Source of the DNA: Alphaproteobacteria bacterium
Lineage (GTDB): Bacteria > Pseudomonadota > Alphaproteobacteria > UBA2966
NCBI GenBank assembly: GCA_018650465.1
Contig: JABIFY010000149.1
Location: 1 to 40,544 of the forward strand
DNA: 40,544 bases
Direction: 5' to 3'
The translations under genes were made by a program, and so were the position numbers. The notes under the pieces are model-generated. The model saw only the letters and a program-made list of their open reading frames with translations, made no database searches and was not told the DNA's origin. Positions 31,773 through 35,032 of the stretch are shown piece by piece. Each line of letters starts with the position of its first letter. Position 1 is the first letter of the stretch.

Positions 31773-32894
31773 ATGGCAACTGTGTTAACGGAACAAGGTC
31801 CGGTCGACGTGTCGGCAGGCCCGGGTTCCCAGGATCAACTCTGGCTGACACGCCCGGATGCGGATGCTGTATCGGGCTGGGCCATGAAGCCCGAAGGCTT
31901 GTGCAAGGGCGACATTTGTATGCCTGTGCCAGCTGACAAAGCCGACGACTATGTCCGCGATGATCACATCAATCTCGCGGCCTTCTGGGATCGCATGCAA
32001 AAACCCTCAGCCCACAGCCAAAATGGTGATGTCTGGGTTCTGGGTGAAAGTGCTGACGACCGCAGTGCCAGACTTCAGTCTCTCGAAGCACCTGATTTTT
32101 CCCTGCCCGATCTGGATGGCAAGTTCCACAGCCTGTCTGATTTCCGCGGCAAAAAAGTATTCCTGGCGACCTGGGCCAGCTGGTGAGGCTGTCGTGCAGA
32201 TCTGTCCGTGTGGCAGGCAATTTACGACGATTACCAGAACAATGACTTTGTAGTTATTGCCGTTGCCATGGACAACGACATCGAAGCCGCACGCCCCTGG
32301 ATTGAAGACGCCAAACCCACCTACCCCGTCCTGATCGACCGCTATCATCAGCTGGCGGATCTGTACAATATGGTCAATGTACCGCAGGCCGTGTGGATTG
32401 ATGAGGCTGGCCAGATTGTGCGTCCAACGGAAAATGCCGGGGCCTTTGAAGGATTTCGGGCCCTGGACTTTGAAAGCATGACCGTGCCGGACGACGTATC
32501 CGCAACGGTGCAGTCTTCAAAAAAGACCTATGTTGCGGCCATTCGTGACTGGGCCGAAAACGGCGTGGACAGTGTTCATGCCTTCACTCCCGATCAGGCC
32601 CAGGCCCATCTGGAAGCTCCGGATGACAATAAGGCCAAGGCACATGTCATGTTCCGCCTTGGTATGTATTTGCAGCAAACCGGCAACGACGCAGAAGCTG
32701 ACAGTTTGCTGGCACAGGCAGCTGACCTACATCCTGAATCCTGGACAATCTGGCGCCAGGCTGCGGACAAGCTGGAGAACGGCCTGGCCGCAGGCCCCGC
32801 CTTTTGGCAACGCGTCAATGCCCTGGGCGAGGATCATTATTACAAGCCGGTTGATATGGCTGGCATGCCGACAGAAGGACCGCCGAAGGGTTGA
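31773..32894 (+). CDS. Redoxin-family selenoprotein (TGA at 32184-32186 read as selenocysteine)
   Basis: Full product 373 aa with Sec138; GGGGG lies 9 nt before the ATG. Without recoding the frame stops after FLATWASW. Read through the TGA it continues in the same frame as GCRADLSVWQAIYDDY, completing a thioredoxin/AhpC-TSA fold (EAPDFSLPDLDGKFHSLSDFRGKKVFLATWASW-U-G-C), with VVIAVAMD and the cis-proline loop VNVPQAVWIDEAG in the right places. The Sec sits where redoxins have the active-site Cys, and C140 follows. Residues 1-90 form an extra N-terminal region (C44, C49) and about 280-350 look TPR-like. A hairpin fitting a bacterial SECIS is at 32201-32217. The GTG at 32208 is not a real start. 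Confidence 0.88.
32201..32217 (+). promoter_or_regulatory. Putative bacterial SECIS element of the redoxin gene
   Basis: Stem TCTGTC (32201-32206) / GGCAGG (32212-32217), 6 bp including two G-U pairs, loop CGTGT. The loop begins 20 nt after the TGA and has G in its second position, agreeing with the usual bacterial SECIS rule (loop 16-37 nt from UGA, G among the first two loop bases). It lies inside the coding sequence, as bacterial SECIS elements do. Confidence 0.65.
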
Positions 32895-33068: not shown

Positions 33069-34508
33069 ATGAATAACTTATCCGACGGCTACGCCGTATT
33101 TGTAAAACGTGATTGCGCAACCTGCGTGCTTGTCTCGCCAGTATTGGCGGAGATACGGGCGGCGGGCCTGCCACTGACGATCTATACCCAGGATGATCCT
33201 ACCTTCCCCGATGGCATGGATGACATCACCAATGACCTGACGCTGGAAGCGGCTTATCACAACGATATCGAAACGGTGCCGACCCTGCTGCGCATTGAAG
33301 GCGGCAAGGAACAGGGCCGGGCTGTGGGTTGGGTCAAGGATGAGTGGCTGGACCTGAGCCAATTGCCAGACCTTGGCAAAGAGCTGCCCGCCATGCGACC
33401 GGGTTGCGGGTCGAAATCTGTTGAGCCTGGCATTGCCGAACGCCTGGCCGTGGAATTTGGCAATGTGCCAATCACCTCACGCCGCATCGAGATCAGCGAA
33501 ATCGAAGACGATGCTGAAGCCTGTTATGACCGGGGCTGGACTGATGGCCTGCCGGTGGTGCCCCCGACACGGGAACGGGTTTGGCGCATGTTGCAAGGCA
33601 CCAGCCGCGCACCGGACGAAGTTGTTGGCATCATGCCGCCGGACCTGGTGGAATGCACTGTGGAAAAGATCGCCATCAATGCCGTTATGGCAGGCTGTAA
33701 ACCTGAATATATGCCGCTGGTGCTGGCCGCCGTCGAAGGTGCATTGATCGACGAATTCTGCCTGCATGGCTTGTTGGCGACCACCTGGTTTTCCTCACCG
33801 GTGCTGGTGATTAATGGCCCACTCGCCCAAAGGGTTGGCATGAATGCAAAAGGCAATGCCATGGGCCAGGGCAATCGCGCCAATGCGACCATTGGCCGTG
33901 CCCTGCAATTGATCGTACGTAATGTGGGTGGTGGCAGGCCAGGTGAAGTGGACCGTTCCTGCCTTGGCCAGCCGGGAAAATACACCTTCTGTTTTGCCGA
34001 AGACGAAGAAGGGTCCTGCTGGGACAGCCTTGCGGTAGAGCGCGGGTTCGATGCCAACCAGTCTACCGTCACCCTGTTTGCCGGTGACGGTGTGCAGCCG
34101 ATCTTCGATCAGAAATCACGCACGCCGGAAGCGCTGGCGCGGACATTTTCTTTGACCCTGCGCAGCATTAATCACCCGGAAATGGTCATGATCGGCGACG
34201 CCATTCTGGTCGTCTCACCAGAACATGAGCGGGTGTTCCGCGATGCGGGCTGGGACAAGGACCGCTTGCGTCAGGAACTGGACGAGTTATTGTTGATGCC
34301 GGAAGCCAACAGTGACCCATCCCTGTCGCGCAAAGATATGGTGCTGCCACCGGTAGCCTCTAAAATGCGACCGGGTGGTTTGTTGATCGTGCGCGCCGGT
34401 GGCGGTGCCGGTATGTTTTCTGCCGTTATTGGCGGCTGGGTTGCCAGCGGCCCCAAGGGCAGTATTCCTGTGACAAAAGAAGTTTCATCAAGGGAGGTGC
34501 AAGAATGA
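33069..34508 (+). CDS. Thioredoxin-fused UGSC-partner protein of unknown function
   Basis: Product of 479 aa. Residues 1-95 are a thioredoxin-like domain with C16-A-T-C19 and the cis-proline loop ETVPTLL (P71). A linker with GCGS at 112-115 leads to a large domain that begins CYDRGWTDGLPVVPPTRERVW near 152-172 and includes VECTVEKIAINAVMAGCKPEYMPLVLAAVEGAL near 194-226 and glycine-rich segments GNAMGQGNRANATIGRA and NVGGGRPGEVD. I recognise this only as a protein that recurs beside UGSC-type genes; no reaction is known to me. Conserved-looking cysteines are C152, C196 and C210. Its stop overlaps the UGSC start by 4 nt (ATGA). Confidence 0.85.
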   Translation: MNNLSDGYAVFVKRDCATCVLVSPVLAEIRAAGLPLTIYTQDDPTFPDGMDDITNDLTLEAAYHNDIETVPTLLRIEGGKEQGRAVGWVKDEWLDLSQLPDLGKELPAMRPGCGSKSVEPGIAERLAVEFGNVPITSRRIEISEIEDDAEACYDRGWTDGLPVVPPTRERVWRMLQGTSRAPDEVVGIMPPDLVECTVEKIAINAVMAGCKPEYMPLVLAAVEGALIDEFCLHGLLATTWFSSPVLVINGPLAQRVGMNAKGNAMGQGNRANATIGRALQLIVRNVGGGRPGEVDRSCLGQPGKYTFCFAEDEEGSCWDSLAVERGFDANQSTVTLFAGDGVQPIFDQKSRTPEALARTFSLTLRSINHPEMVMIGDAILVVSPEHERVFRDAGWDKDRLRQELDELLLMPEANSDPSLSRKDMVLPPVASKMRPGGLLIVRAGGGAGMFSAVIGGWVASGPKGSIPVTKEVSSREVQE

Positions 34509-35032
34509 GTGATAATATGATCATGCTCGATCCGACATCCGAGCTGAACCCGGCACAACGGCAACGCCTGCCGCGCGCCGAAAGCTTGGACGGTCTGAAG
34601 GTCGGCCTGCTGGATATCTCGAAAGCCAGGGGTGATGTTTTTCTCGACCGCCTGGAAGAACTGTTCCAGGCCGATGGCATCGAAGTCAAACGCTATTCCA
34701 AACCAACCTTCGCCCGCCCTGCTCCGACCGACCTCGCGCAAACAATCGCTGCCGAAGTTGACGTCGTCGTCGAAGGCCTGGCCGACTGAGGATCGTGTAC
34801 CTCGTGCTGTATGCATGACATCACAAACCTTGAAGGCAGAGGCATTCCCGGCGTTGGCGTGGCATCAACCGAGTTCATTGAAGCGGCAGCGGCCCAGTCA
34901 AAATCCCTGGGCTTCGATCCGGCTATCGTCTTTGTGCAACACCCCATCCAGGACCGCACCGACGACGAAGTCCGGGCACTTGCTGACGAAGCCTTTCCAG
35001 GCATCGTGAAACAGATATCCATGAATGCCTAA
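34505..35032 (+). CDS. UGSC-family selenoprotein (TGA at 34787-34789 read as selenocysteine)
   Basis: Full product 175 aa with Sec95; GGGAGG lies about 6 nt upstream of the ATG. The frame stops at TGA after VDVVVEGLAD and then continues in the same frame as GSCTSCCMHDI, NLEGRGIPGVGVASTEF, to a TAA at 35030. U95-G-S-C98-T-S-C101 fits the UGSC family named from marine metagenome selenoprotein surveys, and also the U-x-x-C-x-x-C pattern of glycine reductase GrdB and proline reductase PrdB, where a ...E..GIP.V segment likewise follows. A SECIS-like hairpin is at 34802-34818. The ATG at 34811 is internal, not a gene start. Reaction unknown. Confidence 0.9.
34802..34818 (+). promoter_or_regulatory. 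Putative bacterial SECIS element of the UGSC gene
   Basis: Stem TCGTGC (34802-34807) / GCATGA (34813-34818), 6 bp with one G-U, loop TGTAT with G in second position. The loop begins 18 nt after the TGA. Stem length, loop size and spacing nearly equal those of the hairpin in the redoxin gene. Alternative foldings of this stretch exist (for example GTGTAC/GTATGC at 34795-34814), so the exact structure is not certain. Confidence 0.6.

Follow-up and report, generated by a model that had tools for sequence, protein, structure and literature searches.

To our knowledge, the breaking of selenium-carbon bonds is rare and has so far been described in anaerobic amino-acid fermenters. Such a bond is broken by glycine and proline reductases (PMC10298544); in glycine reductase GrdB receives electrons from NADPH by a route that leads through thioredoxin reductase, thioredoxin and GrdA (PMC3091704). 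UGSC proteins, which according to the GOS selenoproteome paper (PMC2398784) belong to the most frequent selenoproteins in aquatic metagenomes and are likely thioredoxin-like (Trx-like) in fold, with no function given, are counted in a 2026 review (PMC13188914) among families with largely uncharacterised functions. Here, a UGSC gene and the gene preceding it (Table 1) were analysed in a window, that is, the whole stretch of 40,544 nucleotides under study, and the data suggest that UGSC is probably one half of an unrecognised thioredoxin-fed reductase of oxygen-respiring microbes.

Table 1. Features of the UGSC locus and their positions in the window.
Feature	Position	Strand	Remarks
Obligate partner gene	33069..34508	+	479 aa; N-terminal thioredoxin-like domain and ~335-aa domain of unlisted family
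KRDCATC (CxxC) motif of the partner's thioredoxin-like domain	33105..33125	+	22 further loci have a KxDCxTC-type motif at the aligned position
Shine-Dalgarno-like GGAGGTG, 5' of the UGSC start codon	34492..34498 (approximate)	+	sequence
UGSC-family selenoprotein gene	34505..35032	+	175 aa, Sec at codon 95; ATG 34505, stop TAA 35030-35032
TGA (UGA) read as selenocysteine	34787..34789	+	conserved at all but one place of the class sample; TGC/TGT in Cys-form homologues
Upper stem-loop of the bacterial SECIS element	34802..34818	+	nt 16-32 (counted from the U of UGA), with G34809-U34810 at the apex

The selenocysteine codon and its SECIS element

The UGSC product was matched over nearly its whole length by both family models, each above its curated cut-off (Pfam PF24696, UGSC: 147.9 bits, E = 4.2e-43, cut-off 25; NCBIfam NF041046, UGSC_fam: 157.7 bits, cut-off 125), which bears out the family assignment made in a preliminary description of this DNA. 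The family motif [UC]G[ST]C is present as U95-G-S-C98, in a host that decodes Sec, and with TGA translated as Sec the surrounding residues read ...EGLADUGSCTSCCMHDITNLEGRGIPGVGV... Within a sample of 289 genomes of the class (class sample), the family was found in 27 genomes at about 70 places, with up to eight per genome, and all places but one carried exactly one TGA, always at the same codon; the exception (G246) has TGC. The uninterrupted frame around the TGA was likewise as first described. Over the 77 codons 3' of it, the window gene and its congener (G194) differ at 26 nt, all 26 of them at third codon positions, indicating that the part behind the TGA has been selected as protein and excluding a chance ORF or a pseudogene. 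The gene is accordingly read, from its sequence, as encoding a genuine selenium-containing UGSC protein. On plasmid pFER4 of Paracoccus ferrooxidans, a UGSC gene (L157:8369-8938) sits between selA and selB and is annotated as two hypothetical ORFs divided at the Sec codon.

Downstream of the UGA, at a fixed spacing, lies a SECIS-like hairpin with a stem of 5-6 bp, in which nt 16-21, counted from the U of UGA, are paired with nt 27-32. Because Rfam gave no SECIS match in the window, this hairpin was assessed by scripted folding and pairing tests. An apical GU was present in 68 of 68 sequences (G23-U24 in 57, and one base earlier in 11 of the third class), the pair 21-27 covaried (C-G in 45 and G-C in 12 sequences), and offsetting the pairing partners by one base abolished pairing. 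The median folding z at the site was -2.2, compared with -0.4 to +0.1 at shifted offsets. The full hairpin was found in 54 of 68 Sec loci versus 6 of 27 Cys homologues (MFE -9.0 versus -3.3), a decay that points to more than codon constraint, with the caveat that the Sec and Cys sets also differ in lineage. In the preliminary description, this hairpin was the second of two, the other lying in a redoxin selenoprotein gene (31773-32894; ASWUGC, TGA 32184) that scored 281.6 bits with the WAxxUGC_long model, just below the cut-off of 300. The hairpin of the UGSC gene withstood the tests; that of the redoxin gene, with its GU two bases later, also folds, at a folding z close to zero.

The Sec machinery that remained to be checked proved to be complete in the host genome (G000): a tRNA-Sec gene (ARAGORN) lies at C147 beside selA (TIGR00474, 600 bits) and selB (TIGR00475, 468 bits), and selD (428 bits) is located away from this site. 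Extra matches to the tRNA-Sec model at C145 and C90 were tRNA-Ser. The host, which had been taken for an aerobe, has three COX1 matches over the cut-off and appears able to respire oxygen.

The upstream gene as an obligate partner

The gene directly upstream, missed in the preliminary description, shares the 4 nt ATGA with the start of the UGSC gene and, judged by its distribution, is the obligate second half of the system. It had no Pfam, NCBIfam or PDB match and is labelled hypothetical in plasmid records. A partner profile search returned the same 27 of 289 genomes as UGSC, and in 63 of 66 loci of the class sample the partner was found within 6 kb of UGSC, either adjacent or fused in frame, with the two sharing one reading frame at 13 places; among the three loci with no partner nearby, one lies near a contig start and one belongs to a genome with the partner on another contig. 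The partner also stood beside the Cys form of UGSC in 26 of 26 loci from haloarchaea, actinobacteria, proteobacteria and methanogen MAGs, including Natrinema, Streptomyces and Candidimonas (the contig scan behind this set used back-translated Cys and hence covers Cys forms only). Loci of the UGSCSSW class often have two copies of the partner, and on one contig (L063) a UGACTSC-class and a UGSCTPA-class UGSC paralogue occur together with three partner copies.

Invariant residues of the partner include D159, G160, P166, R277 and E311, and C210 is almost invariant. A relationship of the partner to UGSC or to the GrdB/PrdB family (GRDB) was rejected (hhalign scores of 15.9 and 17.7, respectively). 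Structural searches gave a best Foldseek E of 0.008 with a TM of about 0.2 and a best VIA-align 2 Z of 6.1, mainly over residues ~240-463; the weak Foldseek matches, to class I fumarate hydratase and cyclic amide hydrolases, were not significant, and the partner was placed in no fold family.

The N-terminal domain of the partner matched a thioredoxin HMM weakly (E = 0.008) and was modelled with low confidence, so that its designation as Trx-like rests mainly on the conserved CxxC; this CxxC domain forms part of the partner in the window and in 22 further loci. Types without the fused domain often have a trxB-like gene (CxxCDG) nearby; of 92 loci, 16 had such a gene at a distance of up to 6 kb. 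The gene order is trxB-trxA-partner-UGSC in Arthrobacter and partner-UGSC-trxB in Roseovarius. The trxB-like neighbours of class loci share only ~30% identity with annotated TrxB. Where the fused domain is absent, the neighbour family met most often was Pyr_redox_2, which was not among the neighbour families listed for the types that have the domain. The fused domain and a nearby trxB-like gene seem to replace each other, and these thioredoxin links would fit a reductive enzyme.

Remote homology to GrdB and PrdB and predicted fold

When the UGSC profile was aligned with 16 selenoproteins of the GRDB family, all from the host's class, hhalign returned an E-value of 1.7e-6 (90%, 116 columns) with Sec placed on Sec, and the alignment extended past Sec via the E..GIP segment to an HP/PLG strand. 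With the motif masked the E-value was 1.1e-5, and with the motif deleted 3.6e-5 (all being values of single-pair comparisons, not database searches). The true pair scored 50, against at most 20 for a reversed profile and 60 shuffles and at most 25 for 16 real families. The kinship with GrdB and PrdB suspected in the preliminary description thus reaches beyond the short motif, since the similarity survives both motif removal and the controls. GrdB/PrdB-type models were matched by many of 53 UGSC proteins (TIGR01917 by 23, best 6.6e-5; NF040794 by 18; TIGR01918 by 11; NF040795 by 10; TIGR04483 by 9), no unrelated NCBIfam family recurred among the matches of these proteins, and in the reverse search the UGSC model matched one GRDB protein (E = 0.0039). 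PDB sequence searches with UGSC, the partner and GRDB yielded nothing useful. Membership of UGSC in the GRDB family itself was rejected because its scores are far below the cut-offs: the window protein reached 15.2 bits with TIGR01917 (cut-off 602) and did not match PF07355, and none of the sampled UGSC proteins attained a GRDB cut-off. The motif U-x-x-C-x-x-C had initially been likened as a whole to that of GrdB and PrdB. What the two families appear to have in common is U-x-x-C; the third Cys is present in the window gene and in 36 of 53 UGSC proteins, but in none of the 16 sampled GRDB-family proteins. Taken together, UGSC appears to be a remote but real homologue of the C-terminal, Sec-bearing lobe of GrdB/PrdB. 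Neither PF04723 (GrdA) nor PF09338 (Gly_reductase, the pyruvoyl subunit) was matched in any of 16 UGSC genomes, in a search in which no control genome matched either model.

The AF2 model of UGSC (pLDDT 93, pTM 0.86) consists of five alternating beta-alpha units and places residue 95 where a helix begins after the third strand. Its structural matches were flavodoxin-, receiver- and PurE-like proteins, and the predicted fold is flavodoxin-like; on this model a thioredoxin fold is rejected, at odds with the likely Trx-like fold of PMC2398784. Flavodoxin-like folds are very common, and the fold alone is no proof. The best match was PDB 8s7v chain H (Z 12.0, 131 residues, rmsd 3.0; runner-up Z 9.9), which belongs as a subunit to the methyl-CoM reductase activation complex and resembles the UGSC model in fold, without a sequence match.

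Proposed enzyme and alternative explanations

Based on sequence and on analogy with GrdB, we propose, with a probability of roughly 0.6, that the two genes encode a two-subunit, thioredoxin-fed selenoenzyme with GrdB-like selenium chemistry. The small subunit, UGSC, would present Sec95 at a helix N-terminus within its flavodoxin-like fold, with Cys98 three residues on, and in the unfused forms would associate physically with the partner. The latter, as the large subunit, most likely binds the substrate and would stand where glycine and proline reductase have their pyruvoyl subunit. On this analogy, the Sec95 selenolate would attack the substrate at an activated carbon or heteroatom, Cys98 would resolve the Se-substrate adduct to form a Se-S bond, and this bond would be reduced by the thioredoxin system, the thioredoxin of the window type being built into the large subunit.

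UGSC types other than that of the window lie near genes for CoA transferases, luciferase-like monooxygenases, amidohydrolases, tripartite carboxylate and TRAP transporters and LysR regulators. These neighbourhoods suggest catabolism, and the substrate at such loci is probably a small carboxylate or a CoA-type metabolite. At window-type loci no clear pattern was seen, the commonest neighbours being short-chain dehydrogenases (6 of 92 proteins). The redoxin selenoprotein and FMN reductase genes that adjoin the UGSC pair in the window were rejected as parts of the system, as they are conserved in the congener only (1 of 92 loci). In haloarchaea and actinobacteria, the neighbourhood of Cys-form UGSC repeatedly contains a phosphosulfolactate synthase gene, identified by annotation or by similarity (L151, L154, L127, L128, L143 and L146), which may hint at sulfonate chemistry.

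The lack of a strongly recurrent neighbour family at window-type loci would also agree with UGSC being a thiol or selenol peroxidase, or a general disulfide-type oxidoreductase, whose Sec/Cys pair reduces peroxides or disulfides, whose partner merely recruits thioredoxin and which serves detoxification rather than cleavage of a metabolite. Although this explanation could draw on the adjoining redoxin and FMN reductase genes and on a paper on GrdB peroxidase activity that is cited in PMC3091704, we regard it as unlikely: the two neighbours go no further than the congener, an obligate 335-aa partner with many invariant non-Cys residues exceeds what a peroxidase needs, and the up to eight paralogues per genome, many of them near CoA transferase, amidohydrolase, luciferase-like monooxygenase and carboxylate transporter genes, suggest substrate-specific metabolism.

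A further complication is a variant in which the UGSC-partner fusion carries DMGTSS in place of DUGSC and stands beside aconitase X and DUF126 (L156:8281-10005 and L158:8323-10008; Sporomusa termitida and Vibrio europaeus plasmids). It indicates that the scaffold needs neither Sec nor Cys to work, which would be an ill fit to an invariant reductive mechanism; the paired scaffold is broader than the redox chemistry, and the reaction proposed here is one that we infer. As this variant retains the partner residues beside those two genes, it lends some weight to a reading in which catalysis lies with the partner, acting as a lyase, hydratase or isomerase, as its weak Foldseek matches might suggest, and UGSC is a regulatory or structural redox switch. 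We consider this less probable still than a peroxidase, because those fold matches lack significance and because the retention of Sec at nearly all places of the class sample, and of Cys elsewhere, argues for catalysis by UGSC. That TGA 34787 is a true stop, leaving a 94-aa pseudogene or two ORFs in keeping with the deposited annotation of the Paracoccus homologue, has next to no probability in view of the third-position-only divergence, the conserved UGA, the SECIS covariation and the complete Sec machinery.

Comparison with known systems

In its whole-length family match, its Sec motif and its size, the window protein corresponds to UGSC as modelled in PF24696 and NF041046 and described in PMC2398784. 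The fusion of UGSC to a domain Unknown_1 mentioned in that paper may involve the partner found here. Neither an obligate partner nor a relation to GRDB is stated in the passages of the family literature that were covered, and the openly available papers mentioning both UGSC and GrdB draw no connection between them in the passages covered. With its homology to GrdB/PrdB as an anchor, its obligate partner and a likely donor of electrons, this orphan family becomes a testable enzyme, and if its chemistry is GrdB-like, selenium-carbon bond breaking would extend to respiring bacteria and archaea. More tentatively, UGSC and its partner may form a widespread third branch of Sec/Cys reductases beside glycine and proline reductase, one that is thioredoxin-fed, occurs in respiring bacteria and archaea and has diversified into up to eight substrate-specialised paralogues per genome.

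The same genomes also contain GRDB-like UPxC selenoproteins with the same lobe and Sec as UGSC. One of these, in the host genome (C147, L113:1453-2691), lies near the selA-selB-tRNA-Sec site and has UPxC relatives in other genomes of the class; it differs from UGSC in its UPFC motif, its length of 413 aa and its score of 119 bits with the PrdB model. GrdB and PrdB themselves (GRDB, PF07355, TIGR01917, TIGR04483) share with UGSC a Sec-x-x-Cys before a helix, followed by E..G.P and a strand, and glycine reductase is linked to thioredoxin, as are the UGSC loci. In contrast to GrdB, UGSC is without the N-terminal half, and the partner that accompanies it is unrelated in sequence to GRDB.
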